A stretch of 61,818 nucleotides of DNA from an uncultured Saprospiraceae bacterium (lineage in GTDB: Bacteria; Bacteroidota; Bacteroidia; Chitinophagales; Saprospiraceae): assembly GCA_938016265.1 (NCBI GenBank), contig CALLWB010000037.1:1-61818 (forward strand), in the 5' to 3' direction. Shown piece after piece: positions 26,477 to 53,564 of this stretch. How positions within the stretch are numbered: position 1 is the first letter of the stretch; the number at the start of each line of letters is the position of its first letter. Position numbers and translations under genes: made by a program. The notes below the pieces were generated by a model, which was given only the letters and a program-made list of their open reading frames with translations, was not told the origin of the DNA and did not search any database.

Positions 26477-29400
26477 ATGAAAAAATTCAACTTATTTAAA
26501 CAATTAGTACTTAGTCTAGTATTAGTTGGATTCCTATCCACAAATTCCAATGGACAAACCACAATTAATCTTGCTTCACAATGCAATTGTGAAGTCCTAA
26601 GCGGTACAGGAGTACCTACATCTGGTTCTCCCGCCGCCAATCCTGGCAATCTATATATAGATGACAACACAGGAAATGTTTACAGCTATGACGGTACTTC
26701 CTGGTCACCAATTGCAGCTGATGGTGCGCCTGGTGCTACTGGTGCTACTGGTGCTCAAGGACCTCCGGGTTTAGATGGCGCAGATGGTGCTCAAGGAATA
26801 CAAGGCCCTCCAGGTACACCTGGTGCACCCGGTGCTACTGGCCCTCCAGGCGCAACGGGTGCCCAAGGAGCAACTGGTGCTACTGGTGCTCAAGGTCTTC
26901 CAGGAGCTGATGGTGCTGATGGCGCGCCCGGTGCTACTGGTGCAACCGGAGCTACAGGTGCTCAAGGTGCTCAAGGACCTCCGGGTTTAGATGGCGCTGA
27001 TGGTGCTGATGGTGCTCAAGGAATACCAGGTGCACCCGGCGCTACTGGCCCTCCAGGTGCAACTGGGGCGACAGGTGCAACCGGGGCTACCGGTGCTACA
27101 GGTGCTCAAGGACCTCCGGGTTTAGATGGTGCTGATGGTGCTGATGGTGCTCAAGGAATACCAGGTACACCAGGTACACCAGGTGCACCCGGTGCTACTG
27201 GCCCTCCCGGTGCAACTGGGGCGACAGGTGCAACCGGGGCTACCGGTCCTCAAGGTCTTCCAGGTGCTGATGGCGCTGATGGTGCTCAAGGAATACCAGG
27301 CACACCTGGTGCACCCGGCGCTACTGGCCCTCCAGGTGCAACTGGGGCGACAGGTGCGACAGGCGCTCAAGGGGCAAAAGGCGACCAAGGAGATAGCTGT
27401 TGGGATCTAAACGGAAATGGTGTACTAGACACAGGTGAAGATGTTAACGGAGATAACATGGGAAGTGCACTTGATTGCCTAGGAGAAGACCATGATTGGT
27501 ACGAAGTAGGATCAACAAACCCACCAAATTCTATAAATGACAATCAATTCACTCAAGGAAATGTAGGGATTGGAGTTACGTCTCCTGCACAACAATTGCA
27601 CGTTGGTGGCAACATAAGAACAGATGCACGTAGACTGTATCTCGGAACAGTACAAAACCTATTCGGAAATAATGCAGGAGATCTGTTTTTTACAAGTAAT
27701 AGTTCTACATTAACAAAAATGCGATTCTATGACAAAGAAAGTGTTTTGTACGGTGCTGTCGCTGGTACATCAGATGGTTTGAGTTTCGGGCTAAACGACA
27801 AAGATCAAAACTGGACATTCCGCTCTGTACATGACCTTTACCTTACTATGTCAGTAGATAATTCTGAAAAAGTTAGAATAAATGATAATGGTAATGTCGG
27901 GATCGGTACAACTGGTCCTACACAAAGACTAGACGTAAACGGTGGCCTTCGTGTTCGAACAATCACTGCAGGAACTGCGGCTCACGAGGTACTTGTAGTA
28001 GATGCCAATGGTGTCGTCAGAAAAAGAGCGGCATTGGATGGATCTGCAACCAACGAACTCCCAACTGCTGGAAATGATATTGATGTAACTGGAACACAAG
28101 TAAATGTTGAACCAATATTGGATTTTGTCCATACTATGAATTCTCCAGCACAAAGTGCAACATTTAGTGCAGGTGGAAACATCTATATGCGTGCATGGTT
28201 TGATGGGCATGTCGGAATTGGTACTTTATCTCCAGCTGCTGGATTGCATGTAGACCACGACGATGGCCTTATTGCTGAAGGTACATTTGGTACAGGTCTT
28301 TATCTTGGAACAGGAGGTGGAACAAGAATGGTTTGGAGTTCTAAAAAGGCCGCCTTCCGTGCTGGACAGGTTAGTAGTATCCAATGGGATGAAGTCAATG
28401 TAGGAAACTATTCAGCTGGATTTGGATATAATTCAACCGCTCGAGGTGGATTCAGTTTTGCAGGGGGGAGCAATGCCAATGCAACTGGCGATTATTCTTT
28501 TGCTTATGGTGTAAATCCTACTGCTTCTGGGACTAGTTCCATTTCAATGGGCAACGGCGCAAGTGCAACGGGTGCAAACTCTATTGCAATTGGTTTTTCT
28601 AACATTGCCTCAGGGTCTGGTTCCGTTGCAATCGGTTATAATACTACAGCAACAGGAATCGGTTCTAAAACACTTGGAGCAGAAGCCACCTCAAGTGGTC
28701 TAAATTCTGTAGCTATTGGAGACGGTACTTTTGCAAGATCAAGAGGTGAAGTTGCTGTTGGTACATTCAATGAAGATAAAACCGCTATAAGCGCAAATGG
28801 GTTTAATGCAAACGATCGTGTTTTCTCTGTTGGAATCGGAGCTTCTACTTCTGCCCGTTTTGATGCCTTTAGCATATTCAAAAATGGAATATCCAGATTT
28901 GATGGAACGGTTGATATAACAACTAGTACTACGACCTCACAGGAAGGTCTAAACATTTACAATGCAGGAAATGCGCGTGGACAAATTATAGTAAATGCTA
29001 AATCAACCAACACCAACGATGCACTCTATGTTAGAAACGATGGACAAGGAACTGGAATTTTCTCTTTTATCAATAATTCAACTAGTGACAATCCTTCTAT
29101 TGATACTCGCTCGCAAGGTACAGGTGCTAATATTTTTGCTCGTACTTTAAATGGAGCCAATGTTAATCCTGCTATTTATGCTATTCATGATGGACATGGA
29201 GAAGGACTATTCGCAGGTGGTTCATCACTCCAAAATCCAGCAATCAAAGGAACTAACTTTAGAAGTGGTGCTACCTGGTACTCGGCGACGAATACCTCAC
29301 AGTCCGGTGGGATTGAGGGTACTACAAGAGAAGGAAGAGCAGGTGTTGTTGGTACAGTCTGGAAAAACACCTTGTTTGAACTTAGAAATACGAAAGGAGG

Positions 29401-29947
29401 ATACTTCGCCAATGCATATGGAGGAACAGGTACAACCTTAACAATTCCTAACTGGGCAATGGTTTCCTACATTGACGCTGGTGGAACAAATAGAAAACTT
29501 GATGGCCCAGGAGCCGTTGGTTCTGTAATTAAAGATCTCGACGAAAAACCAGTATTAATGACCTGTGTCGAATCTCCTGAGATTTTATTCACAGATTATG
29601 GTACTGGCCAATTGGTCAACGGAAAAGCGACTATAAAACTAGATCCAATTTATACAAAAAACATTATCGTAGACCAGGACAACATTATGAAAGTATTTGT
29701 CCAGTTAAACGGCGATTGTAATGGTGTGTTTGTCACTAACAGGACTGCGACTGGCTTCGAAGTACAAGAGCTAAAAGGCGGCACATCCAATGCCTCGTTC
29801 AGCTACGAAGTTGTTGCAAACAGAGCAAATACGAATGAATATGGAGATACAATGTATTTCGATTCAAGGAAACGTTTTGCTCCAGGACCAGAGCCCGGCG
29901 AAATGCAAGGTCAAGCACAAGAAACAATAAGTCGTGAAAATCAATAA
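26477..29947 (+). CDS. Fibre protein A1: collagen stalk, YadA-like head, no S74 domain
   Basis: A 1,156-residue exported protein. A signal peptide ([20 protein letters not shown] ...) is followed by a ~55-residue domain shared by all four A proteins ([16 protein letters not shown] ... [17 protein letters not shown]). Residues 83-307 are 75 uninterrupted Gly-X-Y triplets ([19 protein letters not shown] type). A Ca-loop/disulfide cap ([19 protein letters not shown]) follows, then fibre segments with NVGIG and LHV motifs. Residues ~645-765 are YadA-head repeats ([19 protein letters not shown]). The C-terminus has [18 protein letters not shown] to [10 protein letters not shown]. This is the plan of a trimeric surface fibre. 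The start at 26477 is chosen for the signal peptide and is conserved in A2; a longer frame is open upstream. TSP3 gene B1 follows after 32 bases. Confidence 0.85.
26723..27397 (+). repeat. Collagen-coding repeat of A1
   Basis: The DNA repeats at 9 bp and also in larger near-identical blocks of roughly 110-135 bp, each coding [10 protein letters not shown] ... [10 protein letters not shown]. Such sequence readily gains or loses units by slippage, so the stalk length may vary between strains. Confidence 0.85.
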
Positions 29948-29979: not shown

Positions 29980-32900
29980 ATGATTAATATTAAAATATTT
30001 TCTTCAGTTGGAAATTGGTTAACCCTTTTACTAATGATGCTTATTCCTATTATTGGAATAGGTCAAAGTGTTACCCTAGTTGCACCTTCTGGAGAAGCAA
30101 ATTACCAATGGTTTAAACAAGACGGTACTGGCACCAACGCTATAAGTGGTGCAACAAACGGTTCTTATCTTGCTATAAGTCCTGGTATTTATTATGCAAC
30201 CTACGACGCCAACTCATGTGGCGGCGCAACAAATTACTCCGTTGTCGTAGACGACTGCGGCACCGATGCAGATTACATTCTCAACCTAGGGTCTACCTCC
30301 GGGGCGATTCAATGGTTTGAAGCGACTACCGCGCTATCTGGCGAAACAGCAGCAACACTATCCGTAGCTGCCAACTCTACAGCTAGAACATTTTACGCTA
30401 ACGTCACTCCAACAAATGGATGTACAAGCAAATCAGCAGAGTTCACAATTATCAACCTCAATGCCTGTGAAGATTTAGATGGTGACGGGATTGCAGATCA
30501 GGACGATCTCGATGATGATAATGATGGAATTCCCGATTTGATGGAAGTACCATCCGACCCTCTTGCAGATGCAGACGACGATGGAATTCCTGCTTGGCTG
30601 GATGATGATGATTCGTTAGATACAGTAGGTAATGCCGATGGTTTACCTGAAGCAGGCTTCGATACAGACGGCGATGGATATCCAAACCACCTCGACCTCG
30701 ATTCCGACGACGATGGGATCACAGATATCCTTGAAGGTGGAGGAATTGATGATGACAATGATGGTCAGGTAGATTATCCAACTGCAGGTGATCCAATGTC
30801 TATGACAGATGCCGACATGGATGGGTTAAGTGACGATCCAGTTGTTGACACCAACAATGATGGCACCGCAGATACCGCAGCAGACACAGACACCTCTGCC
30901 ACTGTTGCTGGCACTAACCTGCCTATTCCTAACACAGATGGAGCGGGTGATCCAGACTTTCTGGACATCGACTCCGATGACGACGGCATTCCTGACAATA
31001 CGGAAGCATTTGCAGGAGGAGGGTTTATTCCTCCTAGTGGAAATGACACAGATATGGATGGATTAGATGACGCATATGACAATGACGATGGTAATTCCAC
31101 AGGACTAGATGATGGTCCGGGAACAGCTGTCCTACCGACAGATACCGACATGGATGGTGCTCCTGATTTCCAGGATCTTGACTCTGACAACGACAGTATT
31201 AATGATATTGTAGAAGCTGGAGGAACGGATGCGGATCTGGATGGACTTATTGACACTCCAGCAGATGAAGGAACATTGACCAACCCTCCAAATTCTGACA
31301 ACGACAATATCCCTGATTACCAGGACGTAGATTCTGACAATGATGGCACGAATGACATTGTAGGTACTCCAGATTCTGCATTAGATACCGACGGAGATGG
31401 AATGGTTGACAACACTTCAGATACAGATAGTGATGGTATACCTGATGTCATTGACGGCCTTACTGGACATGGAGATTCTCCTGATTCTGATGGTGATGGG
31501 GTTTCAGATGCCAATGACCTTGACGATGACGACGATGGAATTCCAGATACCGTAGAAATTGCTACAGCTTTAAATGGTGGTGATACAGACGGTGATGGTA
31601 TACCAGATCACCTGGATCTTGATTCGGACAACGACGGTATTAATGATATTGTTGAAGCAGGCGGAACAGATACAGACAACAATGGTTTGATTGATGATCC
31701 TGCAGACGAAGGTAGTATTACTAATCCAACAGATACCGATATGGACGGCGTGCCAGACTTCCAGGATGTTGACTCTGACAATGATGGCACATTCGATATC
31801 GTCGGTACGGTAGACGCTGGAGAAGATGCTGATGGCGATGGAATGATCGATGACATCACTGATGCTGATAACGATGGCATTCCTGATGTGACTGATGATT
31901 TGCCTGGAACATTTGGCGATGCATTAGATTCTGATGGAGATGGTATTTCAAATGCGAATGATCTTGATGATGATAATGATGGAATTCCTGATACGGTAGA
32001 AATTGCTACTGCATTAAATGGTGGTGACACTGACGGAGATGGAATACCTGATCACCAGGATTTAGACTCTGACAACGATGGTATCCATGATATTATTGAA
32101 GCAGGAGGTACCGATAATGACAACGATGCCATGGTAGATATACCTTCTGAGGAAGGAACAATCACCAATCCACCAGATACAGACATGGACGGCATTCCAG
32201 ACTTCCAAGAGGTTGACTCTGACAATGACGGCACATTCGATATTGTCGGAACGGTAGACGCTGGAGAAGATGCTGATGGCGATGGAATGATAGATGACAT
32301 CACTGATGCTGATAGCGACGGTATTCCTGATGTGACAGATGATTTACCAGGAGTATTTGGTGATGCGTTAGACTCAGACGGTGACGGTATTTCTAATGCT
32401 AATGACCTGGATGATGACGACGATGGAATTCCTGATACTGTGGAAATTGCAACTGCAACAAACGGTGGCGATACAGACGGTGACGGTATTCCTGACCACC
32501 AGGATCTTGATTCTGATAACGATGGAATCAATGATATTGTTGAAGCAGGCCTAGCAGACACCGACGACAATGGAATGGTGGATGTACCAGGAGACGAAGG
32601 TTCAGTAACCAATCCAACGGATACCGATATGGATGGCGTACCTGACTTCCAGGAGACAGACTCTAACAATGATGGAATGACAGATATCTCTGGGACTTCA
32701 GACGCTTCTCTCGACGTGGATGGTGATGGTATGATCGATGATCCTACGGACACTGATCGAGATGGTATTAAAGACCCTGTAGATGGAATGCCACTTGTTT
32801 TTGGAGATGCTCCAAGAGGTATCGTGCTAAGTGTTACAATACTATTACAGGGGCCTTACAATTCAGGAACTGGTTTGATTTCTGACAATCTCGTAAGAAG

Positions 32901-33504
32901 CAGTTTACTGCCACTTACAGAGCCTTACACCGGACTTGGGTATACTCATGTCAATGGTGGTGGTGGTGAATCAATTAGTCCTGCGGTGCTAGCAACTACT
33001 GGCCCAACTTCGGTTGTGGACTGGATATTCCTGGAACTTCGAGATCCATCCACGCTTGTTGATATTCTAGAAACTCGATCTGCGTTGCTTCTTGCTAGCG
33101 GAAAGATTGTAGACTTAGATGGTGTTTCTCCAGTTCGATTTAACAATTCTACTAATAACTCTTATTATGTAGCCGTGCGGCATAGAAATCACCTAGGAGT
33201 AATGACTCCTGGAGCGCTTTCCTTGACCAACACAGTAACCACTGCACATGACTTTACAAACGGGAGCTCTTTTGGTAATATCAACGGAGATGCACAGAAG
33301 AGTTTGGGAGGTGGAAAATTTGGATTGTTTGAAGCTGACTTCAATGGGGATGAACAGATCAATGCTGCTGACCGTAGTATTGCCTGGAACAGCCGCAATT
33401 TGACTGGCTATCGTACGGATGACTCTAGTTTTAATGGGGTCTGCGATGCCGCTGAAAGGAGTCAATGTTGGAACAATCGTAATTTAAATTCGAAAATTCC
33501 ATAG
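29980..33504 (+). CDS. TSP3-array protein B1 with dockerin-like C-terminus
   Basis: A 1,174-residue exported protein. The signal peptide is [20 protein letters not shown] ... GIGQ. Two Ig-like segments follow (30-94, containing ANYQWF and [20 protein letters not shown]; 95-165, containing [20 protein letters not shown]). Residues ~165-945 are a continuous thrombospondin-type-3-like array of DxDxDGIPD and DLDSDNDG loops, expected to bind many Ca2+ ions and form a stiff rod. Residues 947-1174 are the C-terminal module: [42 protein letters not shown], then [20 protein letters not shown] and [18 protein letters not shown] as a paired dockerin-like motif, ending KIP. It is the second gene of unit 1, followed by a strong terminator. 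Confidence 0.85.
31516..32820 (+). repeat. Three 444-bp super-repeats in the TSP3 array of B1
   Basis: Blocks starting at 31516, 31960 and 32404 are each 444 bp (148 codons) and encode the same order of loops, from [17 protein letters not shown] to [11 protein letters not shown]; the third runs into the C-terminal module. Exact equal length shows amplification of a whole 148-residue unit rather than of single loops. Confidence 0.85.
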
Positions 33505-33535: not shown

Positions 33536-33573
33536 AATAGGTCTGCCAGGTATTCTGGCAGACCTATTTTTTT
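33536..33573 (+). terminator. Rho-independent terminator of fibre unit 1
   Basis: A perfect 14-bp stem AATAGGTCTGCCAG/CTGGCAGACCTATT with a 5-base loop, followed by a T run. Confidence 0.92.
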
Positions 33574-34305
33574 GAAATTTTCCAAATGAATTCAAAAAAA
33601 CAAATGAATTCATTGAAGAAATCCAGTAGTGATTTTTTCTCTTTTAAGTAGGGGTTGCAACAGAAAACAATCTGCTTTCGACACTGCTCACAACCACACA
33701 AATAGTACTAAATGCATAAAAACTAATCAGATAAACATCAGTCCCTTTTATAGTAGCTCCTATAGATTATGTTCTTTGCCAACCCAATTTAACCTCATCA
33801 CCCCCTAATGCTCGCGCTTCGTATTGCCAATATTAAAATATTATAAAATTAAAATTTCTTTCACGCAGTGTAAACCTAAAACAAACCACACCAACACATT
33901 CAATAAGATACACTTATACATAAAAAACCTAAACAAGATAAAGTTTTTAAAATACAAATTAGTGACATATATTAAATTCACCAATTTTTCCAAACTCCCA
34001 ATAAACATACTATTCTAGCAAATTTAGAACACAATAAACTAAGTCACAAATAGGCCAAACACATTATAAACCAACAAAGTAGGAATTACGATTAATTAAT
34101 AAAAAAAACAAACTGGCATCTAAAAAGTGACATTTTTTATTTAATTTTAAATCAACAAATATACTGAATAAGTACCCCGCTTATTTTTTTACAACTGAAT
34201 TCTAAACTTCATCCACTCTTCCTGAGTGTTTCCCATTAAAAACTATGGAAGAAAATGGATGTGCAAAAACAAAAATCAAATATTATTCAATCGAAAATCT
34301 ATACT
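33574..34305 (+). promoter_or_regulatory. Upstream region of fibre unit 2
   Basis: About 730 bases of very AT-rich sequence without a supported gene. It carries GTGACAT at 33962-33968 (ATTAGTGACATATA) and at 34127-34133 (TAAAAAGTGACATTTTTT), the same pair of contexts as upstream of unit 1. A 64-codon frame at 33824 is a composition artefact. Confidence 0.4.
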
Positions 34306-37300
34306 ATGAAAAAATTAAACCTAATCTATCAATTAACATTATGCCTTTTGTTAGTTGGATTTTTATCCACTAACTCAAATGGGCAAACCACAATCAATCT
34401 TGCATCTCAATGCAATTGTGAGGTTTTAAGCGGTACTGGAGTTCCTACTTCAGGTTCTCCCGCTGCTAATTCGGGCAACCTATATATAGACGACAGCACA
34501 GGAAATGTTTACAGCTTTGATGGTACCTCTTGGTCTCCAATAGCAGCTGACGGTGCAACTGGTCCTCAAGGACCACAAGGGGATCCTGGACCAACGGGTG
34601 CTACCGGTGCTCAAGGACTTCCGGGTGCGGATGGGGCTACTGGTGCTCAAGGACCTAAAGGTGACACGGGTGCAACTGGTCCTCAAGGGCTTCCAGGTGC
34701 GGATGGAGCCGATGGAGCAACTGGTGCGCAAGGGGCAACTGGTGCAACTGGAGCAACTGGTGCTCAAGGGCCTAAAGGCGACAAAGGTGACCCCGGCATA
34801 CCTGGTGCTACTGGGGCTACTGGTGCTCAAGGGGCTACTGGTGCAACGGGAGCAACTGGTGCCCAAGGACCTAAAGGCGACAAAGGTGACCCGGGCGCAG
34901 CTGGTGCAACAGGTGCAACTGGTGCTCAGGGCGCCACTGGTGCTCAAGGGGCTACTGGCGCTCAGGGACCTAAAGGCGACCAAGGTGACCCAGGACCAAC
35001 TGGTGCAACAGGCGCAACTGGTGCTCAAGGTGCAACAGGCGCTCAAGGACCTAAAGGCGATCAAGGAGATAGCTGCTGGGATCTAAACGGAAATGGTGTA
35101 CTCGACACGGGTGAAGATGTCAATGGAGATAACATGGGTAGTGCGCTGGACTGCTTGGGAGAAGATCATGATTGGTACGAAGTAGGATCTACAAACCCTC
35201 CAAATTCTATTAATGACAATCAATTCACACAGGGTAATGTGGGTATAGGAGTCGCTGCACCAGCTCAACAACTGCATGTTGCTGGCCATATTAGAACCAA
35301 TACTGGAAGAATTTATTTGGGAGCAGCAGGTGTTCAAAACTTACTTGGTAACAATTCAGGGGATTTATATTTCACAAGTAATAGCTCAACACTTACTAAA
35401 ATGAGGTTCTACGACAAAGAGGGCGTTTTATATGGTGCTATAGCTGGTATTACTGATGGTTTAAGTTTTGGGCTAAACGACAAAGATCAACATTGGACCT
35501 TCCGATCCGTACACGATCAATACCTTACGATGTCGGTCAACAATTCTGAAAAAGTTAGAGTAAATCTCAATGGTAATGTCGGAATTGGTGTCGCAGCTGC
35601 CTCACAAAGGTTAGATGTAAATGGTGGACTACGTGTTCGAACATTAACCGCTGGAGTTGCAACGAATGACATTGTTGTCGCTGATGCAAATGGTGTTTTA
35701 AAGAAAGCCACACGTGCTACGCTTGGTTTACTCTCCACTGCTGGAAATGATATTGACATTGCTGGAACACAAGTAAATGTTGAACCTCAATTAGATTTTG
35801 TTCATACGGTAAATTCTCCAAATGCACTTCTATCATTTAGAGCTCAAAATAACTTCATTATGCACATGCGTGGTGGAGATGGGGCAGTTGGAATCGGGCC
35901 TGCAACTTTGCTAGCTGGTTTTCACGTAAATCACGACGATGGAGTCGCCATGGAAGGCACCTTTGGTTCTGGTAGAGACCCGATTGTTGGCGCAGGAACA
36001 CGTATGATTTGGAGCCCTAAAAATGCTGCCTTCCGTGCTGGTCAGGTTAGTAGTACTCAATGGAATGAAGTCAACATCGGTAATTATTCAACAGGCTTGG
36101 GTTACAACACTATCGCTAGCGGTGGATTTAGTTTTGCAGGGGGTAGCGGAAGTACAGCTTCTGGAGACTATTCGTTTGCTTATGGTCCAACTGCAATAGC
36201 TTCTGGAGCACGGTCGACTGCCTTCGGTGCTGGAGCAATTGCTTCGCAAACTAACACTATTGCACTGGGTTCTGGTGCAGTTGCTTCTGGAAACTCTTCT
36301 ATTGCCATTGGTTTTAATACACAAGCGACTGGTACCGGTTCCAAAACATTTGGTGGAGAAACGGTATCTAGTGGTCTAAACGCAGTTGCAATTGGAGATG
36401 GAACCATTGCTAGATCCAGAGGTGAAGTTGCCATAGGGTCTTTTAACACCAACTATTCTGCAGCTAGTGCAAATGGCTTTAATGTAAATGATCGAATCTT
36501 TTCTGTCGGTAATGGAACAAGCACAACTGCTCGCTCAGATGTGTTTAGAATTTTTAAAAGTGGAAAATCCCGCTTTGACGGACATGCAGAAATTTATAAT
36601 AGCAATAGTTCAACAGGACTTTTCGTGAGTCAGTCAGGATTAGGAACTGGCCAACAAATTACTATGAACAATACTGCTAGTACCAATGTTGGACTAAGAA
36701 TAAACCAACGAGGGTTAGCAACCGCTCAGGATATTGTTATGGAGAATACTAGTAGCACTGCAAATGGATTCTATTTGAGACATAATGGACTAGGATATGG
36801 CCAACAAATTGTAATGAATAATACAGCTAGTTCAGCTAGAGGATTGGATATTCTTAATAGAGGAACAGGCCCCGGGCTTTATATTAACCAAACAACCGCA
36901 AATACCAATGCCGCAGTATTTTACGCTGGAAATGTAGTAGCTAATGAAATAGGGGGCAATTTTGATTTTAGAGTTGAATCAGATACAAGAACCCACGCTT
37001 TCTGGATAGATGCAAACGAAAATATTGCTAATTTTGGTTCTAATCTTTCAATTGCAACCAGCAATGGAACTGTTATTGGAACAACAACAGTTGACTATGT
37101 CGCAGATTTCGATAGAGGTACTAATACTGGCACAGCGATAGGAATTGGATCTATCGAATTCCTATTAGACGGAGTTGCTGAGACAACAATCAATAATTCA
37201 TTCTCTCCATCTACTCACATTCAAAAGGACCTTGGCTTTAGCTTAACAGAGAGAGCATGGGATGATGTCTATGCAGATGATTTTGTAAATGTTTCCGATC

Positions 37301-37872
37301 GACGTGAAAAAAACAACATACAGAATATTACTTATGGTTTATCTGAAGTTTTGAATATGAGATCTGTTTCCTACAAATTAACAAAAGATCCGTTCGAAGA
37401 AACTAAGCTTGGACTTATCGCACAAGAAGTATTACCCCTTGTTAGTGAAGCAGTTAAAACACATGACCACAAAATTTTAGATGAACAAACTGGAGAGTAT
37501 GAGCTAGTTGAGTTAGACCGAATGGGAATGAAATACCAGCAGCTAATACCTGTTTTGATTAAAGCGATTCAAGAGCAACAAGATCAAATCGAGAACCTTT
37601 CAGGTTCAAATGGGAAAATGTCTGAGGTTGGCAATGGTCAATTAGTTAATGGTAAAGCCATTATTCAACTAGACCCTAGTTATACCAACAGCATTGAAGT
37701 GGATATAGACAACAAAATGCAGGTTTTCATTCAATTAGAAGGTGAATGTAATGGGGTTTATGTTACAAACAAATCGGCTACCGGTTTTGAAGTCGTAGAA
37801 CTGAACGGCGGAAAAAGTAGCGCTTCCTTTAGTTATGAAGTCGTTGCAAATAGAGCAAATACAATTCACTAA
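34306..37872 (+). CDS. Fibre protein A2: collagen stalk, YadA-like head and S74 self-cleaving chaperone
   Basis: A 1,188-residue exported protein with the same front part as A1: a signal peptide, the QCNCEVLSG domain, 58 Gly-X-Y triplets at residues 83-256, the [15 protein letters not shown] cap, LHV fibre segments, and a YadA-like head at ~589-712. Towards the end it has a peptidase-S74 intramolecular chaperone starting [11 protein letters not shown], with Ser997 and Lys1002 in the Ser-x4-Lys spacing of the endosialidase-type catalytic dyad, then [11 protein letters not shown] and a coiled coil ([13 protein letters not shown]). Unusually, the GQLVNG ... [10 protein letters not shown] domain follows the S74 domain (residues ~1105-1188). 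If cleavage occurs at Ser997, both would be released together. The start is set by the signal peptide. Gene B2 begins 17 bases later. Confidence 0.87.
34552..35073 (+). repeat. Collagen-coding repeat of A2
   Basis: 58 Gly-X-Y codon triplets with more [20 protein letters not shown] units than A1, so charge is richer and Pro lower. Repeated blocks of [17 protein letters not shown] type recur at the DNA level. Confidence 0.85.
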
Positions 37873-39956: not shown

Positions 39957-39989
39957 TTTAGGTACTGAAATTTAATGTATGACTTATTG

Positions 39990-40021
39990 AGGGTCTGCTG
40001 GATATCCAGCAGACCCTTTTT
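39990..40021 (+). terminator. Rho-independent terminator of fibre unit 2
   Basis: A perfect 12-bp stem AGGGTCTGCTGG/CCAGCAGACCCT with a 4-base loop and a T run. Confidence 0.92.
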
Positions 40022-42413: not shown

Positions 42414-45400
42414 ATGAATATTATAAAAAAAATAAGCCCAGGCAGGTTGCTTGCCATTATTGCCTTGGTTTTTCTCAATTTTTCACTAGCAATTAGCCAG
42501 AGCGTAACGCTCAATGCTCCCGCAGGTGAAACAAACTACCAATGGCATATGCAATGGGCTGGTGCTGCAACTCCCATTTCAGGAGCAACAAATGCAGCCT
42601 ATACCACCAGTACTCCAGGTATTTACTTTGCAACCTACGCAGCAAACTCCTGTGGCGGTGCATCTGATTACAGTATCGTAGTAGATGACTGTGGTATTGA
42701 TGCGACGGTAAATCTTTTTTCAGGAGTTTCTACAGGTATGTTTCAATGGTTTAAAAACAATGCCGCTATTCCCAGTGAAGTAAATAGTTCATTGGCTGTT
42801 GTTTCTGATCAATCTCCTAGTACCTATTATGCAGAAATTGCACCAACAACAGGGTGCTCTACCACATCAGCCTCCTTCACCATAATCAACCTAAATGCTT
42901 GTGAAGATACAGATCAAGATGGCATTGCGGATGAAGACGACCTCGATGACGATAACGATGGAATCCCGGATTTGATCGAAGTGCCTTCTGATCCTCTTGC
43001 CGACGCGGATGATGATGGAGTACCTGCATGGTTGGATGATGACGATTCATTAGCAACCATTGGAAATACGGATGGTTTGCCGGAAGCTGGTTTCGATACA
43101 GACGGAGATGGGGTACCAAATCACCTTGACCTTGACTCAGACAATGATGGAATCACCGATATCCTAGAAGGTGGTGGTATTGACACTGACAATGACGGTG
43201 CAGTTGACTACCCCACTCCGGGAGATCCTACTTCTATGACAGATGCTGATATGGATGGTCTAAGTGACGATCCAATTGCCGATACAAACAATGACGGTAT
43301 AGCAGATACACCTGCTGATACAGATACTTCTGGACCAGTGGCTGGCACCAATTTACCAATTCCAAATACTGATGGAACTGGGGAGCCGGACTTCCTAGAC
43401 CTCGACTCTGATGATGACGGGATTCCTGATAACATAGAAGCGTTTGCTGCAGGTGGATATATTCCTCCTTCCGGGAATGACGCCGATATGGATGGCCTGG
43501 ATGACGCCTACGACAATGATGATAATACTTCCACAGGTTTGGACGATGGCCCTGGATCTCCTGTGAACCCAACAGATACAGATTCTGATGGTGCTCCAGA
43601 TTTCCAAGATTTAGATTCAGACAATGATAGCATCAACGATATTGTTGAAGCTGGTGGTACCGATGCAGATATGAATGGTCTAATTGACAACCCAGCGGAT
43701 GAAGGAACGCTTACTACTCCTTTGAATTCCGATGGAGACAACATTCCTGATTTCCAGGATGTCGATTCTGACAATGATGGCACTAATGATATCGATGGGA
43801 CACCAGATGCCGGTCTTGATACAGATAATGATGGTATGATAGACAATACAACCGATACAGATGAAGATGGAATTCCTGATGACATTGACGGTCTGGTTGG
43901 CCATGGTGATGCTCCAGATTCTGATGGTGATGGAATAGCAGATGAGGACGACCTCGATGACGATAACGATGGAATCCCGGATTTGATCGAAGTTCCTTCT
44001 GATCCTCTTGCAGATGTGGATGATGACGGAGTACCTGCATGGTTGGATGATGACGATTCATTAGCGACCATTGGTAATACGGATGGTTTGCCGGAAGCTG
44101 GTTTCGACACCGATGGTGATGGCATTCCAAATCACCTTGATCTGGATTCAGACAATGATGGTATCACCGATATCGTAGAAGGTGGTGGTATTGACACTGA
44201 CAATGACGGTGTTGTTGACTACCCTACTCCTGGAGTTCCTAGCTCAATGACTGATGCTGACATGGACGGTTTAAGCGACGATCCAGTTGCCGACACTAAC
44301 AATGATGGCATAGCAGATGCACCTGCGGACACAGACACATCAGGACCGACAGCTGGAACCAACCTTCCAATTCCAAATACTGACAATGCTGGAAATCCAG
44401 ACTTCCTTGACATCGACTCTGATGATGACGGGATTCCTGATAACATAGAAGCGTTTGCTGCAGGTGGATATATTCCTCCTTCCGGGAATGACGCCGATAT
44501 GGATGGCCTGGATGACGCCTACGACAATGATGATAATACTTCCGCAGGTTTGGACGATGGTCCTGGATCTCCTGTGAACCCAACAGATACAGATTCTGAT
44601 GGTGCTCCAGATTTCCAAGATTTAGATTCAGACAATGATAGTATCAACGATATTGTTGAAGCAGGTGGTACAGATGCAGATATGGATGGTCTAATTGACA
44701 ATCCAGCGGATGAAGGAACGCTTACCACTCCTTTGAACTCTGACGGAGACAACATTCCTGATTTCCAGGATGTCGATTCTGACAATGATGGTACTAATGA
44801 TATCGATGGCACACCAGATGTTGCCTTAGATACCGATGGAGATGGGATGGTGGATAACACTACAGATACCGACGGAGATGGAATTCCTGATGTTATTGAT
44901 GGATTAGTTGGACATGGAGATTCTCCAGACACAGATGGAGATGGAGTTTCAAATGCAATTGATTTGGATGATGACGACGATGGAATACCAGACCTTATTG
45001 AAATTGCTACCTCCACCAACAATGGAGATACAGATGGTGATGGAGTCCCTGACCACCAGGACCTCGATTCAGACAATGATGGAATCAATGATATCGATGA
45101 ATCTGGTGGAACTGATAATGATGGCAATGGAATGGTAGATACGCCAGCAGCAGAAGGTGCCACTACGATGCCTACAGATACGGATGGTGATGGCATACCT
45201 GATTTCCAAGAGGTAGATTCCAACAATGACGGCGTCACAGATATTGCTGGGACACCAGACGCCGGACTTGATATGGACGGCGATGGCCAGATAGACAACA
45301 CAATGGATTCTGACGAAGATGGAATTTTGGATCCAGTGGATGGATTGCCTACAATCTTTGGAGATGAACCGCTTGGTGTAGCTCTGCGACTTAAAATTCT

Positions 45401-46052
45401 CCTGCAAGGTCCTTACTTATCTGCTACAGGATTAATGAATGATAATTTGGTTCGATCTGGAATAATTCCTACTAGAGAACCTTACACCGGACTGGGATAC
45501 ACGCACATTACTGGAGGAGGAGAGTTAGTCAGCGCTGCTGTACTTGCGACAACAGGAAGTACCTCCGTTGTTGATTGGGTCTTTGTTGAGTTGCGGGCAC
45601 CTACAACGCTAACGACTATACTAGAAACCAGAGCAGGATTGTTATTGGCAAATGGTAATATCGTAGATGTTGATGGTGTTTCACCCTTGAGATTTACCTC
45701 ACCTGCGAATACCTTTTATGTTGTTGTCCGACATCGAAATCACTTGGCGGTAATGACTCCAGGAGCACTTTCTTTATCAGGGACTCCTACATTCCATGAC
45801 TTTACAGGAGGTTCAGCTTTTGGTAACATTAATGGGGATGCTCAGAAATCATTAGGAGGCGGATTGTTTGCCTTATACGAAGCTGATTTTAATGGAGATG
45901 AAGCCATTAATGCTGCAGATCGAAGTATTGCCTGGAATTCCAGGAACCTTACTGGCTATCGAATTGATGATTCAAGTTTCAATGGAGTTTGTGATGCAGC
46001 TGAACGCAGTCAATGTTGGAACAATCGAAATTTGGTTTCGAAAGTGCCATAA
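42414..46052 (+). CDS. TSP3-array protein B3 (longest array) with dockerin-like C-terminus
   Basis: A 1,212-residue exported protein. The start at 42414 (MNIIKKISPGRLLAIIALVF) gives the signal peptide; the frame is open to 42384. Two Ig-like segments follow (YFATYAANSCGGASDYSIVV; MFQWFKNNAAIPSEV), more diverged than in the other B proteins. The TSP3 array covers ~162-985 and contains a 337-residue internal tandem duplication ([20 protein letters not shown] and its repeat with one changed residue). The C-terminal module (989-1212) is homologous but clearly diverged: [42 protein letters not shown], then [20 protein letters not shown] and [18 protein letters not shown], ending KVP. B3 and A3 together are thus the most divergent pair. 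Confidence 0.85.
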   Translation: MNIIKKISPGRLLAIIALVFLNFSLAISQSVTLNAPAGETNYQWHMQWAGAATPISGATNAAYTTSTPGIYFATYAANSCGGASDYSIVVDDCGIDATVNLFSGVSTGMFQWFKNNAAIPSEVNSSLAVVSDQSPSTYYAEIAPTTGCSTTSASFTIINLNACEDTDQDGIADEDDLDDDNDGIPDLIEVPSDPLADADDDGVPAWLDDDDSLATIGNTDGLPEAGFDTDGDGVPNHLDLDSDNDGITDILEGGGIDTDNDGAVDYPTPGDPTSMTDADMDGLSDDPIADTNNDGIADTPADTDTSGPVAGTNLPIPNTDGTGEPDFLDLDSDDDGIPDNIEAFAAGGYIPPSGNDADMDGLDDAYDNDDNTSTGLDDGPGSPVNPTDTDSDGAPDFQDLDSDNDSINDIVEAGGTDADMNGLIDNPADEGTLTTPLNSDGDNIPDFQDVDSDNDGTNDIDGTPDAGLDTDNDGMIDNTTDTDEDGIPDDIDGLVGHGDAPDSDGDGIADEDDLDDDNDGIPDLIEVPSDPLADVDDDGVPAWLDDDDSLATIGNTDGLPEAGFDTDGDGIPNHLDLDSDNDGITDIVEGGGIDTDNDGVVDYPTPGVPSSMTDADMDGLSDDPVADTNNDGIADAPADTDTSGPTAGTNLPIPNTDNAGNPDFLDIDSDDDGIPDNIEAFAAGGYIPPSGNDADMDGLDDAYDNDDNTSAGLDDGPGSPVNPTDTDSDGAPDFQDLDSDNDSINDIVEAGGTDADMDGLIDNPADEGTLTTPLNSDGDNIPDFQDVDSDNDGTNDIDGTPDVALDTDGDGMVDNTTDTDGDGIPDVIDGLVGHGDSPDTDGDGVSNAIDLDDDDDGIPDLIEIATSTNNGDTDGDGVPDHQDLDSDNDGINDIDESGGTDNDGNGMVDTPAAEGATTMPTDTDGDGIPDFQEVDSNNDGVTDIAGTPDAGLDMDGDGQIDNTMDSDEDGILDPVDGLPTIFGDEPLGVALRLKILLQGPYLSATGLMNDNLVRSGIIPTREPYTGLGYTHITGGGELVSAAVLATTGSTSVVDWVFVELRAPTTLTTILETRAGLLLANGNIVDVDGVSPLRFTSPANTFYVVVRHRNHLAVMTPGALSLSGTPTFHDFTGGSAFGNINGDAQKSLGGGLFALYEADFNGDEAINAADRSIAWNSRNLTGYRIDDSSFNGVCDAAERSQCWNNRNLVSKVP
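42939..44960 (+). repeat. 1,011-bp tandem duplication in B3
   Basis: Two consecutive 1,011-bp (337-codon) copies, 42939-43949 and 43950-44960. Parts are almost base-identical: about 210 bases from 43421 and from 44432 show only two or three differences. Other parts differ mainly at synonymous sites. This points to recent duplication or ongoing gene conversion. Confidence 0.88.
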
Positions 46053-46083
46053 AACGAATTAAATATTTTTGTATTATAAGAGG

Positions 46084-46112
46084 AGGCTGTCTCATATCGA
46101 GGCGGCCTTTTT
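46084..46112 (+). terminator. Rho-independent terminator of fibre unit 3
   Basis: A 10-bp stem AGGCTGTCTC/GAGGCGGCCT with two G-T pairs, a 5-base loop and five Ts. Confidence 0.8.
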
Positions 46113-46663: not shown

Positions 46664-49600
46664 ATGAGAACTAAAATTTTACAATTTTTCTTTGCTTCAT
46701 TCTTCACGTTAGGATTAATAACACAGCAAGTCTATGCTCAAACGACCATAAATCTGGCCGCACAATGCAACTGTGAAGTCTTAAGTGGCACAGGCACCCC
46801 GACTCCAGGAACCCCCGCAGCAAATGCAGGCAACCTCTATATCGATGATAGCACTGGAGATGTTTATTCTTTTGATGGTACTGCATGGACTCCTGTAGCA
46901 AAGGATGTCGTTCATAATTGGTATGGGGTAGGTACAACAGAATCTGCAACCTCTATCAACGATGAAGTTTATACATTAGGAAAAGTGGGAATCGGAGTAC
47001 CAGCACCAGATTATGTCCTTGATATTTTTGAAAGTGTTAAAACTGGTGCTACAGTTCGAATCAAAAGTTCAGGCAACCTAACAGGTAATCCATTTGACTA
47101 TGAAGGTGGCCCTGCTATTTTGTTTGAAACTCAAGCTTCAGTCTCCAATGATAGAACGTCTCAAGGTATCTTTCTAAATAGAATTGATAGTAACTCAGAA
47201 TGGTTTTTTGGTAATCCTTCAGGATACTTAAACCAGGTAAATGCGGATGGATTTGGTATTGCACGCATGGTAACTGCTGGCACACACAATAACGATGTTG
47301 CCCAAGGTTCCAACCTATTAATGTATATCAATAATACAGGGAATGTTGGAATTGGAACTGTCACACCCGCCCAAAAGCTACATGTAGATGGTAATATAAG
47401 ATCAGATGGAAGAAATTATTACTTCGGAGCAAATCAAAGATTATTTGGTGATAACAACTCAGCGCTTTACTTCAATAGTGCAAATGTGAACACCACACAG
47501 ATGATTTTCAGAGATGCTGACAATGAAGTTTACGGCCGCCTCCAAGGATCTGGAGATGGAACAAACTTCGGATTGATGGATAAAAATGCGCAATGGGTTT
47601 TTCTTTCACAAGAAGCATCTAACCTTTCTTTTAGAATTAGCAATTCAGAAAAATTTCGCGTCAATGCTGCTGGAAACATGGGAATAGGAACAACTGGTCC
47701 AACAGAAAGACTTGATGTAGCTGGAAAATTAAGAGTTCGAACATTCGATCCAGGTGCTGCTACAGATCAAGTTCTAGTTGTTGGTAACAATGGGGTAGTT
47801 AAAAAAGCTGCTGCATCTGGGCTTGGTTTACTTTCAACAGCAGGAAATGATATTGATATAGCTGGAACACAAATAAATGTTGAACCAATATTGGATTTTG
47901 TTCATACAATGAACTCTCCTGCCCAACAAGCTACTTTCAGTGCGGGAGGAAATGTTTATATGAGAGCATGGTTTGATGGCCATGTTGGTATAGGTACTCT
48001 AACACCTGCTGCCGGATTGCACGTAAGCCACGACGATGGTATTATTGCAGATGGTACGTTTGGCGCTGGTCAGCATCTTGCTGCTGGTGCAGGGACAAGG
48101 TTAATCTGGAGTCCTAAAACTGCTTCATTCCGTGCGGGACTCATCACAGGTACTCAATGGGACGAAGCCAATACAGGCAATTACTCAGTTGGTTTAGGGT
48201 TCAATGCATTAGCAACAGGAGGATTTAGTTTTGCTGGTGGTAGCGCTGCTACTGCAAGTAATGATTATTCATTTGCCTATGGTGTGAATACGGTATCTTC
48301 AGGAATTAGTTCAATTGCATTTGGAAATTTAGCGGATGCTGGTGGAAATAATAGTTTTGCTGCCGGGAACAAGGCCAATGCTTCTGCAAATCACTCTGTT
48401 GCAATGGGTTTTGAAAGTGCTGCTTCTGGTTTAGGTTCCGTTGCACTGGGATCTGAATCTGTAGCTTCTGGTTCTAACTCAGGAGCTTGGGGTTTCCAAA
48501 CCGTAGCTTCAGGAACAGGCTCATTTGCTATTGGATGGCAAGCTGAAGCTACTGGAATTGGATCAAAAACCCTAGGAGCTCAAACCGTTTCTAGTGGTCA
48601 CAATGGCGTAGCGATAGGGGAAGGAACTCTGGCTAGGTCAAGAGCAGAAGTTGCGGTCGGTATGTTTAATGGTGATTATACACCTGCAAGTGCTAGTGCA
48701 TGGTCTGCAAACGACCGCGTATTTTCTGTAGGAATCGGACAAAGTGCTTCTGCACGACAAAATGCGTTTGGTGTTTATAAAAACGGAAAATCCCGTTTCG
48801 ACGGACATGCAGAAATTTATACAGACAATAGTGAACAAGGTCTTTATATGGTTCATACAGGAACAGGAATTGGCCAAAATATTATTATGAACAATGCTAC
48901 TAGTAACAGTGTTGCAATGAGAATAAACCAACGAGGGTTAGCCACGGCTCAGGATATTGTTATGGAAAATGTTAGTAGTACTGCCAATGGGCTTTATTTG
49001 AGACATAATGGATTAGGAGTTGGTCAACAAATTGTGATGAACAATACTGGTAGTTTTGCCAGAGGGTTGGACATTCTTCAACGAGGAAGGGGAGATGCAA
49101 TTTACATAGCGATTACAAATGCAACAAGCACCAACAATTTGATAGATGCCCAACATCAGGGTCTTGGAGTTGGAGCAGCTTTTCTTAACACAAACTCAAG
49201 TAACGGTTTTAATGCTATTGATGCAAGAACCAATGGTACAGGAAATGGAGTTTTTGGCGCAACCACAACAGCTCGTAATGCTGGTGTAAGAGGAACAAAT
49301 TCTAAAGAAAATGGAGTTTGGAATGTTATAACCGCTTTAAATTCGAGCGGTGTTACTATTGCCGGAGGAGTATCAGGAACGACCACCAACGGTATTGCAG
49401 GAGTAGAAGGATGGATGTTAAAAAACACATTAGCCGACCTTAATGGAACCGCAGGTGGATTTTTTGGCAGCATCTACAAAGATGCCACAGCCCCAAATGG
49501 GTTTACAACACTACACAGCACTAGAGTGTCTTATATTACCTCTGCAGGTCAGGCAAGAAAAGTTGACGGTACTGGAGCATCAGGTACAATCGTAAAAGAT

Positions 49601-50011
49601 CTTAACGAAAAACCAGTATTAATGACAAGCGTGGAATCTCCTGAAGTACTTTTCACAGACTATGGAGAAGGGCAATTGGTAAATGGTGTCGCAATAATTA
49701 AACTAGACCCAATTTTCACAAAAAATATTATTGTTGATCAAGATAACTCTGTGAAAATTTTTGTTCAGTTAGAGGGAGATTGCAAAGGTGTTTATGTAGC
49801 CAACAAATCTGCAACTGGCTTTGAAGTTCGTGAGTTACAAGGTGGTAATTCAAATGTGCGCTTTAGTTATGAGGTAGTAGCAAATAGAGCAAACAGAGTA
49901 GATAATAGTGGAAATACCATGTATTTTGATTCTAGATCACGATTTGCTGAAGGACCAGAAGAAGTGATCCCAGTATTGGAAACTAGCGAACGAGAAACAA
50001 GAGAAAACTAA
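46664..50011 (+). CDS. Fibre protein A4: YadA-like head, no collagen, no S74 domain
   Basis: A 1,115-residue exported protein. A signal peptide ([20 protein letters not shown] ... VYAQ) leads into the shared QCNCEVLSG ... [17 protein letters not shown] domain. Fibre segments with NVGIGT and [12 protein letters not shown] follow. The YadA-like head at ~505-666 is the longest in the set ([20 protein letters not shown] and similar). After it come repeats [18 protein letters not shown] and [18 protein letters not shown], which also occur in A2, so the shafts have been shuffled between paralogues. The C-terminus is of the A1 type: [18 protein letters not shown], then GQLVNG ... [10 protein letters not shown] and a short tail with MYFDSR. 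B4 begins 31 bases later. Confidence 0.85.
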
Positions 50012-50042: not shown

Positions 50043-53000
50043 ATGATTAATAATAAAATATTTCGTCTGGTAGGGAATTGGTTCTCACTTTTCTTGATGC
50101 TGTTTTTCCCTATTTGGGGAATCAGCCAAAGTGTTACCCTCAACGCCCCTACCGGCGAAGCAAATTACCAATGGTACGTAAGAGACGGCTTTGGACTTAC
50201 GTTGATCACAGGAGCAAATGCTGCTTCCTATAGCACATCAAGTCCTGGCGTTTATTATGCGACCTATGACGCCAACTCTTGTGGTGGCGCCACCAATTAC
50301 TCGGTTGTTGTAGATGACTGCGGCAATGGTGCAGATTATATTCTCAACCTTGGATCCATCGCTGGTGCTATCCAATGGTTTGAAGGAGCCGCTGCCATTT
50401 CAGGAGAAACCGCTGCTACACTCTCAGTTGCAGCAAATTCCACAGCAAGAACCTTTTATGCCAATGTTACACCAACAAATGGATGTACAAGCAAATCAGC
50501 AGAATTCACAATTATCAACCTCAATGAGTGTGACGATTTAGATGGTGACGGCATTGCGGATCAAGATGATCTCGATGATGATAATGACGGAATTCCCGAT
50601 TTGATGGAAGTACCTTCAGACCCGCTTGCAGATGCAGACGATGATGGAGTTCCTGCCTGGTTGGATGATGATGATTCCTTAGATACAATAGGTAATGCTG
50701 ATGGTTTACCTGAAGATGGTTTCGATACAGATGGCGATGGATATCCTAATCACCTTGATCTGGATTCCGACGATGATGGGATTACTGATATCCTTGAAGG
50801 TGGAGGAATTGATGATGACAATGATGGTCAGGTTGACTACCCTACTGCAGGTGATCCAACTTCAATGACAGATGCTGACATGGATGGTTTAAGTGACGAC
50901 CCGGTTGTTGACACTAATAATGATGGCACCGCAGATACCGCAGCAGACACAGACACTTCTGCTCCTGTTGCAGGTACAAACTTACCTATTCCAAATACAG
51001 ATGGAACTGGTGATCCAGACTTCTTGGATATCGATTCTGATGATGATGGAATTCCTGACAATACGGAAGCATTTGCAGGAGGAGGCTACATTCCTCCTAG
51101 TGGAAATGATGCAGATATGGATGGGTTAGATGATGCATATGATAATGATGACGGTACTTCAACAGGGCTAGATGATGGTCCTGGAACTGCTGTCCTACCG
51201 ACAGATACCGATATGGATGGTGCACCTGACTTTCAGGATCTTGATTCTGACAACGATAGCATCAATGATATTATTGAAGCTGGAGGTACTGATGCGGATC
51301 TGGATGGACTTATAGACACTCCAGCAGATGAAGGCACATTGACCAATCCTCCAAATTCTGACAATGACAATATCCCAGATTTCCAGGATGTAGATTCTGA
51401 CAATGATGGTACAAACGATATCGAAGGTACTCCAGATGCCGCACTAGATACTGATGGAGATGGAATGGTGGACAGTACCACAGATACAGATGGCGATGGT
51501 ATCCCTGATGTCATTGATGGACTAACTGGACATGGAGATTCTCCTGATTCCGATGGTGATGGGGTTTCCGATGCCAATGATCTGGATGATGATGATGATG
51601 GTATTCCTGATACTGTAGAAATCGCTACTGCCTTAAATGGTGGTGATACGGATGGAGATGGAATTCCAGACCACCTGGATCTCGATTCTGACAATGATGG
51701 TATTAATGATATTGTGGAAGCAGGTGGAACGGATACAGATAACAATGGTTTAATTGATGTACCTGCCGATGAAGGCACTCTTACCAATCCAACAGATACC
51801 GATATGGATGGTGTACCAGACTTCCAGGATGTTGACTCTGACAATGATGGCACCTTCGATATCGTAGGTACTGTAGATGCAGGGGAAGATGCTGATGGAG
51901 ACGGAATGATAGACGACATTACCGATGTTGACGGCGATGGAATTCCTGATGTAACAGATGGTCTTAATGGACATGGAGATTCTGAAGATACGGATGGAGA
52001 TGGTATTTCTGATGCCGATGATTTGGATGATGACAATGATGGAATTCCTGATACCGTAGAAATTGCTACTGCCTTAAATGGTGGCGATACGGATGGAGAT
52101 GGGATACCTGATCACCTCGATCTTGATTCTGACAACGATGGTATTCATGATATTATTGAAGCAGGCGGAACAGATAATGACAACAATGGCGTAGTAGACG
52201 TCCCTGCTGATGAAGGAACGATCACTAATCCACCAGATACCGATATGGATGGAACTCCAGACTTCCAGGATCTTGACTCTGACAATGACGGGACATTCGA
52301 TATTGTTGGTACCGTAGATGCTGGCGAAGACGCTGATGGTGATGGAATGATTGATGATATTACTGATGCAGACGGCGACGGTATTCCTGATGTTACTGAT
52401 GATTTACCAGGAGAATTTGGGGACGCATTGGATTCAGACGGAGACGGCATTTCAAATGCGGATGATCTGGATGATGATGATGACGGTATTCCTGATTCCG
52501 TTGAGATTGCTACTGCTACAAATGGTGGTGACACCGACGGTGATGGCATTCCTGACCACCAGGATCTCGATTCTGACAATGACGGAATCAACGATATTGT
52601 TGAAGCTGGTCTTGCAGACACTGACGACAATGGAATGGTAGATGTACCAGGAGACGAAGGCTCAGTTACCAATCCTACAGATACTGATATGGATGGTGTT
52701 CCTGACTTCCAGGAGACCGACGCTAACAATGATGGAATGACGGATATCTCTGGAACTTCAGACGCTTCTTTAGACATGGACGGAGATGGCATGATCGATG
52801 ATCCTACAGACACTGATCGAGATGGTATCAAAGATCCTGTAGATGGAATGCCGCTTGTTTTTGGAGATGCTCCAAGAGGAATTGTGTTAAGTGTTACCAT
52901 ACTATTGCAAGGACCATACAATCCGAGTACAGGACTAATTTCTGACAATCTGGTAAGAAGCAGTTTACTGCCGCTCACAGAACCATACACGGGACTTGGT

Positions 53001-53564
53001 TATACTCATATCAATGGTGGTGGTGGTGAATCTGTCAGCCCTACAGTGCTAACAACTACTGGTCCGACTTCAGTAGTTGATTGGATATTCCTGGAACTTA
53101 GAAATCCAACCACCCTTGTTGATATACTAGAAACTCGATCAGCCTTGCTACTTGCAAATGGCAAGATTGTGGACTTGGATGGTGTATCGCCAGTTCGGTT
53201 TAACAATTCTACGAATAACTCTTATTATGTTGCGGTTCGTCATAGAAATCACTTGGCTGTTATGACTCCAGGTGCGCTTTCCTTGACAAATACGGTAACC
53301 ACTGCTCATGACTTTACTAATGGAAGCTCCTTTGGTAACATCAATGGAGATGCTCAGAAGAGTCTTGGAGGCGGAAAATTCGGATTATTTGAAGCTGACT
53401 TCAATGGTGACGAACAGATTAATGCTGCCGACCGTAGTATTGCCTGGAATAGCCGAAACCTGACTGGCTATCGTGTTGATGACTCTAGTTTTAATGGGGT
53501 CTGCGATGCTGCTGAACGCAGTCAATGCTGGAATAACCGTAATCTAAATTCGAAAATTCCTTAA
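50043..53564 (+). CDS. TSP3-array protein B4 with dockerin-like C-terminus
   Basis: At 1,173 residues it is almost the same length and domain order as B1: a signal peptide ([20 protein letters not shown]), two Ig-like segments ([39 protein letters not shown]), a TSP3 array at ~165-945 and the C-terminal module at 947-1173. B1 and B4 agree over long stretches, including [14 protein letters not shown] and the FIPPSGND-like segment, so units 1 and 4 probably share the most recent common copy of the B gene. Their A genes differ in having or lacking the collagen stalk. The dockerin-like pair ([38 protein letters not shown]) and final KIP are kept. Confidence 0.85.
51579..52880 (+). repeat. Three ~444-bp super-repeats in the TSP3 array of B4
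   Basis: Blocks begin at 51579, 52020 and 52464 (spacing 441 and 444 bp) and encode the same loop order as the 148-residue blocks of B1. The first is one codon shorter ([15 protein letters not shown] instead of [16 protein letters not shown]). Confidence 0.82.

Follow-up and report, generated by a model that had tools for sequence, protein, structure and literature searches.

The window analysed here is the whole stretch of 61,818 nucleotides that makes up contig C37 of a Saprospiraceae genome (7.44 Mb in 146 contigs), and it carries four tandem two-gene units, in each of which a gene for a fibre-like protein (A) is followed by a gene for a protein (B) with two immunoglobulin-like (Ig-like) N-terminal domains and an aspartate-rich array. 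Judging from genome comparisons, A and B are conserved together as a pair, and one B N-terminus is joined to three different C-terminal tails, namely a type B signal of the type IX secretion system (T9SS), a type A signal of the same system and, in the window, a module that is predicted to fold like a dockerin. On balance, we lean towards the view that B is delivered by the T9SS and anchors fibre A, and that the module is a domain, so far unrecognised, for T9SS-linked sorting or anchoring. According to this proposal, each unit would give rise to a two-part cell-surface fibre: A would be a long fibre of collagen- and YadA-type parts with, in some cases, an S74 chaperone, the Ig-like N-terminus of B would hold A, the calcium-loop array of B would serve as a rod, and the C-terminal module of B would be a T9SS-linked sorting or anchoring tag. 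T9SS export, binding of A to B, calcium dependence and location at the cell surface are what we infer from the data below.

The pairing extends well beyond the window. A search of the GTDB 220 genomes with the N-terminal domain of A, which is 54 residues long and contains the motif CNCEVLSG, gave 128 matching stretches; among the best 80 of these 128, four belong to the uncultured Saprospiraceae metagenome-assembled genome (MAG) CALGAW01 and almost all the rest to Flavobacteriaceae. A strong B (best E 1e-38 or better) was present once in 49 of 50 A-bearing genomes, which correspond to 50 of the 77 loci first chosen, a choice that favoured long contigs and isolates; the exception is a Maribacter MAG (L106) with weak B matches only. 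B lies directly 3' of A in all 19 loci read, at −14 to 43 bp from the preceding open reading frame (ORF), and a single shorter gene, with an A-type tail but lacking the A N-terminus, sits between A and B in L211 and L220. In L212, L216, L220, L222, and L224, the A gene is interrupted by runs of N or by broken frames, and the A model was silent in L210, although tblastn had found A there.

The reciprocal search gave the same picture: B was found at E 1e-12 or better in 3 of 396 genomes of the class, the window's own genome included, with A upstream in 3/3. One of them, G130, has the order A-B-PorP/SprF. In the other, the one-contig record G134, B and PorP/SprF stand at one end with an A-type tail ahead of B, and the A N-terminus (E 1.5e-19) stands at the opposite end on the same strand, as expected if A crosses the start of the record. 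When a five-row alignment of the B N-terminus was run against 248 genomes of the order, 118 matched at E 0.001, and outside the own genome these were only weak generic Ig-like matches (best E 6.7e-12), which were not counted as B. All 49 other genomes that match B strongly have one copy of it, and the pair was observed in tandem copies in the own genome alone. Linkage of A and B is thus shown at the level of gene order, and the proposal of an earlier reading made from the window's sequence alone, that the two work as a pair, is supported by co-occurrence and adjacency; mostly unlinked homologues, which that reading named as a refutation, were not what the genomes showed.

In the own genome, the strong B N-terminus occurs five times, each time after an A (5/5). 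The A N-terminus occurs nine times, and four of these nine A genes have no B nearby, so A also exists on its own. The solitary A genes and the very different architectures of the A proteins would suit an explanation in which the two products are surface adhesins that act independently and whose genes sit in one operon only so as to be co-expressed. We consider this rather improbable, since no strong B was seen without an A where the loci were read (5/5 in the own genome, 19/19 loci, and 3/3 from the B side, in Flavobacteriaceae and a Saprospiraceae MAG), and the pairing persists though the paired A ORFs vary from 539 to 3969 aa.

The comparison of B proteins across these loci amounts to a tail exchange on a common N-terminus. 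In 18/18 flavobacterial loci, B is about 670–680 residues long with a T9SS type B domain at its C-terminus, and a PorP/SprF gene comes next after B in 17 of the 18 and in both further loci (G130 and G134). Curated family calls were made for one of these loci, L169, where B matches TIGR04131 at 44.8 bits (cut-off 35) and PF13585 at E 8e-27 and the PorP/SprF protein matches TIGR03519 at 265.9 bits. In a paralogous pair on contig C101 of the own genome, B ends in a T9SS type A tail (TIGR04183, 33.9 bits, cut-off 23). At the same position, the B proteins of the window and of CALGAW01 have a module of about 230 residues, and because this module stands where flavobacterial B has its type B signal and the C101 B its type A signal, we read it as a candidate T9SS-linked tag. 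Neither A1–A4 nor B1–B3 match the type A (TIGR04183, PF18962) or type B (TIGR04131, PF13585) models; 20 module members, including that of B4, match neither type A model, nor TIGR04131, nor the type C model NF033708.

Type B proteins have been suggested, in the part of the source available to us, to be anchored by a PorP-like partner (PMC9143113). As far as the accessible text of PMC9143113 and PMC12618676 goes, flavobacterial B with its type B signal followed by PorP/SprF resembles the type B proteins with a cognate PorP/SprF, such as SprB-SprF of Flavobacterium johnsoniae and PG1035-PorP of Porphyromonas gingivalis. The systems here differ from those described in these texts in that an extra A gene, without a T9SS signal in the one flavobacterial A scanned, precedes B, and in that the window B has neither a type B signal nor a PorP/SprF on its contig. 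From its description in the available portions of PMC12635249 and PMC9870892, the SprC-SprD-SprB-SprF operon was considered as a possible equivalent of the A-B operon.

The module is by no means confined to B. It was matched in at least 150 places in the own genome (150 scored of 192 candidates) and in at least 150 in CALGAW01 (150 scored of 214), and it has no copy in the six flavobacterial A-B genomes tried; type A tails were likewise counted in the own genome as a lower bound only (150 scored of 520 candidates). The sequence-only reading had joined the motif DRSIxWNxRN and the TSP3 array in one module. The motif belongs instead to this separate C-terminal domain, outside the array, and the domain, with its at least 150 matches in the own genome, is not peculiar to the A-B pair.

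The position of the module was surveyed in 818,145 bp of the own genome, in 41 pieces chosen non-randomly around known module and A matches, with type A and type B tails detected by models built here from few sequences. Among 79 closed module ORFs, 76 stop within 15 residues of the module, and the other three, which end 341 or more residues past the module match, were excluded from further counts. None of the 76 carries a type A or type B tail, and 31 type A tails and one type B tail were found among the other ORFs. By a crude pattern, signal-peptide-like starts were present in 64/76 module ORFs, 23/31 type A ORFs and 136/345 other ORFs. Elsewhere, in 20 stretches from 20 of 42 module-bearing genomes, 18 of 23 closed ORFs stop at most 9 residues past the module match; in the remaining five, the match ends 29–78 residues ahead of the stop. 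Again, none (0/23) has a type A or B tail by models of this kind. In CALGAW01, the terminal position was read for its B only. Within the sequences read, the terminal position of the module and its exclusion of type A and B tails are thus shown.

The 42 module-bearing genomes, the own genome among them, come from a sample of 296 Bacteroidota genomes in which at most 10 candidates were scored per genome, so that some carriers may be missed. SprA was found in all 42, compared with 228/296 overall (P = 6.5e-6 at the genome level, uncorrected for kinship).

Two families of the own genome show the same exchange of tails outside B. The M36 peptidase at L243:9097-12549 (contig C114) carries the module at its end and gives no match to TIGR04183, while the M36 peptidase at L247:15017-19519 (contig C101) has a type A tail (TIGR04183, 30.8 bits); the two are 44% identical over 590 columns, and both match the NCBI model of T9SS-dependent M36 peptidases at 732 and 719 bits, under its cut-off of 885. 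In NCBIfam, the T9SS-, rhombosortase- and myxosortase-dependent M36 peptidases likewise represent one family with varied sorting tails, although none of the three models includes the module. Similarly, four tandem module proteins of contig C130 are 31–32% identical to the type A-tailed protein L047:5981-8545 (TIGR04183, 55.8 bits) and 36–40% identical to L047:2513-5413, the trunks aligning over about 670–720 columns, that is, nearly whole. As judged from these alignments, the module replaces the type A tail on related proteins. The C130 proteins (L048:1431-13309) are paralogues of about 920 aa, all module-ended, with Pfam SprB repeats in the one scanned. A divergent module copy was noted at L044:2148-5939 (contig C101), on a DUF1501 protein with a weak match to a twin-arginine translocation (Tat) signal (L044:3882-5939); the gene adjoining it presumably belongs to the DUF1800 type. 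In relatives with genomes of 2.3–4.6 Mb (L259, L260, L263, L264), one to three module matches were seen on proteins of about 700–800 aa.

In its extreme C-terminal position where read, its diverse cargo and its occurrence in Bacteroidota with SprA, the module resembles the T9SS type A, B, and C domains as they are described in the accessible part of PMC10202324. It differs from them in size, about 230 aa compared with about 70–100 aa in that text, and in its predicted X-module-dockerin fold.

No Pfam or NCBIfam model matched the module over its cut-off in the 20 members tested, and the suggestion of a dockerin-like fold comes from structure prediction. The AlphaFold2 model of the B4 module (pLDDT 93.4, pTM 0.91) gave ten top Foldseek matches in the PDB that are all X-dockerins or scaffoldins, mostly of Clostridium thermocellum, with E from 1.6e-5 to 1.9e-3; the dockerin half alone aligned with 2y3n over 54 columns at 1.4 Å (E 0.11). 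A profile search of PDB sequences with the module gave weak matches that include dockerins (best E 0.023), and Pfam Dockerin_1 (PF00404) gave weak matches in 6 of the 20 members, below its cut-off (best E 0.0015; 12.9 bits for the first member compared with the required 22.9). By pattern, at least one calcium-type loop is present in 76/76 tails of the own genome, two in 43 and one only in 33. The paired loops are spaced by 28 residues in 42 cases and by 30 in one, and two loops were found in none of 327 other tails. Helices at residues 186–194 and 214–222 of the model give the duplicated loop-plus-helix arrangement of dockerins. The predicted module thus looks like an Ig-like X-module followed by a two-loop dockerin fold, that is, X-dockerin-like by fold. 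It shares the predicted fold, the order of an Ig-like domain followed by a dockerin, and the paired calcium-type loops with the clostridial X-module-dockerin dyads (PDB 2b59, 4fl4, 5g5d). It differs from them in having about 12% identity, in a Gram-negative Bacteroidota host with no cohesin over the Pfam cut-off, and in carriers that are not known to form complexes.

Besides the A genes that lack a B, several points weigh against our proposal. The TM-scores of the top ten Foldseek matches are moderate (0.43–0.49 over the query and up to 0.64 over the target). The association with SprA is not significant at the genus level, where 37/37 module genera have SprA but so do 136/140 of all genera (P = 0.29, with low power). 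In L047:2513-5413, the type A tail narrowly misses both curated cut-offs (22.8 compared with 23 and 25.6 compared with 27). No PorP/SprF was seen after B in L212, and none is present on the window's contig, with 18 elsewhere in the genome. The proposal also leaves the route of A across the outer membrane unaccounted for. As for cohesins, the partners expected of dockerins in cellulosomes, the six matches to PF00963 in the own genome are all below the cut-off (best 22.9 compared with 24.1 bits, E 3.9e-4), and a model of the cohesin-like domain from a four-row alignment reached a pLDDT of only 50.6.

The fold match to X-dockerin is also what would be expected if the module were an adhesive or docking domain that ties proteins to a surface receptor, export being due to some other, unseen feature. 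Two of the sub-threshold cohesin-like domains precede a type A tail (L229:3938-6040 and L230:7448-9631), which agrees with this alternative. We regard it as unlikely, though clearly worth keeping in mind, since the module is terminal and never accompanied by a type A or B tail (0/76 in the own genome, 0/23 elsewhere) and substitutes for the type A tail on homologous proteins. At L229:3938-7300 (contig C48), we observed a type A-tailed protein with dockerin-like loops (by eye) and a sub-threshold cohesin, which adjoins a module protein with a homologous N-terminus.

A related comparison is offered by the cohesin-dockerin proteins of Ca. Stygibacter (Cloacimonadota). In the accessible text of PMC8542988, this lineage has dockerin-bearing proteins with signal peptides, as here, and a scaffoldin-like protein whose conserved C-terminal domain is said to attach to the surface. 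A scaffoldin with tandem cohesins is reported there, whereas in the genome of the window the dockerin-like module takes the place of a T9SS tail. One could speculate that the module represents one more class of C-terminal signal for the T9SS and that, after export, it plugs, with calcium, into cohesin-like receptors on type A-tailed surface proteins, and so holds much of the surface proteome, fibre pairs included, in a cellulosome-like manner and neither covalently nor by PorP/SprF; we give this extension a low probability.

The A proteins themselves are probably long trimeric fibres. The CNCEVLSG N-terminus is present in all four (4/4), A2–A4 being 69–94% identical to A1 in this domain. The sequence-only reading had given the A proteins collagen stalks, YadA-like heads and S74 chaperones; of these, the heads (PF05658) exceed the Pfam cut-off in all of A1–A4, but collagen is confined to A1 and A2 and S74 to A2 and A3. 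YadA heads and collagen repeats are shared with trimeric autotransporter adhesins (YadA) and collagen-like adhesins. The trimeric autotransporters have a membrane anchor, while the Pfam matches of A1–A4 include no YadA C-terminal anchor family and a partner gene, B, is present instead. A T9SS signal was found neither in A1–A4 (Pfam, NCBIfam) nor in one flavobacterial A (NCBIfam).

Through their collagen, YadA-like, and S74 parts, A1, A2, and A3 also match many tail-fibre families of PHROGs, which is what genes captured from the tail fibres of a phage or contractile injection system would give. Such an origin is very improbable: A starts like a signal peptide (by eye), ten upstream genes scanned contain no Pfam virion family, the partners in relatives carry T9SS signals and PorP/SprF, and A4 matches just three PHROGs of unknown function. 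Flavobacterial A genes are very large (up to 3969 aa) and often run off contig ends or contain N runs, as expected of a repetitive gene (L094–L173), and in seven genomes the B match begins 0.6–1.3 kb from the start of another contig. In most flavobacterial loci (L210–L227), the gene preceding A has a shared C-terminal tail motif like VITNRRITYRVN.

The two-Ig N-terminus is common to B1–B4 (4/4) and is followed by a D-rich array of about 300 to 830 residues. The motif DxDxDGxxD occurs 15–34 times per B, compared with means of 0.3–0.8 and a maximum of 5 in shuffled sequences. The calcium-loop array described in the sequence-only reading is thus far beyond chance, but its assignment to TSP3 is not made by Pfam: no TSP3 model matched B1–B3, and none matched the B2 array even up to E 10. 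The sole support for TSP3 is one match of the B array in the PDB, to the OmpA-family protein 5wtl (E 0.0016). From these motifs, a calcium dependence of the pair is plausible.

The layout of the four units is given in Table 1. A and B alternate across eight plus-strand ORFs (26477-53564) with the units head to tail, the A-to-B gaps being 32, 17, 32, and 31 bp in units 1–4 and the stretches between units 337–750 bp with a G+C of 0.26–0.29, so that the tandem arrangement, the short internal gaps of 17–32 bp and the AT-rich spacers described earlier are confirmed on ORFs and base composition. A terminator-like hairpin likewise stands 3' of every B; it should be noted that the pattern scan found 22 hairpins where 12.5 are expected by chance.

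Table 1. Coordinates of the A-B units, their hairpins and a further module-bearing gene in the window
Feature	Position	Strand	Content or basis
A1	26477..29947	+	signal-peptide-like start (by eye), CNCEVLSG N-terminus 26555-26716, collagen stalk, YadA-type heads, C-terminal region with 11-residue motif
B1	29980..33504	+	two Ig-like domains 30064-30468, D-rich TSP3-like array, X-dockerin-like C-terminal module 32809-33501
Terminator-like hairpin and T-run after B1	33536..33568	+	folding, z -5.58; absent from pattern-scan list
A2	34255..37872	+	N-terminus 34384-34545, collagen, YadA heads, S74 chaperone, 11-residue-motif end
B2	37890..39956	+	Ig pair 37974-38378, short TSP3-like array, X-dockerin-like module 39261-39953
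Terminator-like hairpin after B2	39989..40018	+	pattern scan
A3	40294..42381	+	N-terminus 40372-40533, YadA heads, S74; without collagen
B3	42414..46052	+	Ig pair 42498-42902, TSP3-like array, X-dockerin-like module 45369-46049
Terminator-like hairpin after B3	46080..46112	+	pattern scan
A4	46664..50011	+	N-terminus 46739-46900, YadA heads, 11-residue-motif end; without collagen and S74
B4	50043..53564	+	Ig pair 50127-50531, TSP3-like array, X-dockerin-like module 52869-53561
Terminator-like hairpin after B4	53588..53623	+	pattern scan
2530-aa protein	54108..61700	+	HYR domains and FG-GAP repeats, X-dockerin-like module 61047-61697 at end; non-B module carrier

Synonymous divergence (dS) between units, computed on short stretches, is 0.57–2.94 where computable (below 1 in 3/9) and otherwise saturated. 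Because this divergence is high, the sequences identify the units as old duplicates and not as an assembly artefact, and four versions of the pair have therefore been retained over a long time. Recent exchange between units was considered, but the dS values and the longest exact match between unit genes, which is 58 bp, show no sign of recent gene conversion. The module is less diverged (dS 0.57–1.14 among B1, B2, and B4) than the B N-terminus (1.35 to saturated), which could be due to older exchange or to constraint. The earlier idea of interchangeable versions receives no support, the four copies being old and diverged with nothing that shows swapping. Prey capture, likewise proposed in the sequence-only reading, has no support either, and adhesion and aggregation would be putative roles. 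Elsewhere in the window, a phosphoenolpyruvate carboxykinase gene (24178-25893) lies directly ahead of the A-B units, and nucleoside and sugar-phosphate genes (metalloenzyme, pyrimidine phosphorylase, DeoC aldolase, aldehyde dehydrogenase) occupy 6667-12601.

In a literature search, with subscription papers mostly outside its reach, none of the papers listed dealt with a T9SS signal of dockerin-like type or with the A-B operon. Taken together, our results describe A-B-PorP/SprF as a conserved operon of Flavobacteriaceae for a putative surface fibre, and the single conserved B N-terminus, which has three different C-terminal modules depending on species or contig, as a natural swap experiment, of which the two M36 peptidases of the own genome represent a second case. 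Since the module escapes Pfam and NCBIfam in the 20 members tested, an export route used in at least 150 places per genome in two genomes would be invisible to annotation. If the module is indeed a T9SS-linked signal, the T9SS signals known so far, types A, B, and C, would not be the complete set, and the surface proteomes of many Bacteroidota would be undercounted.

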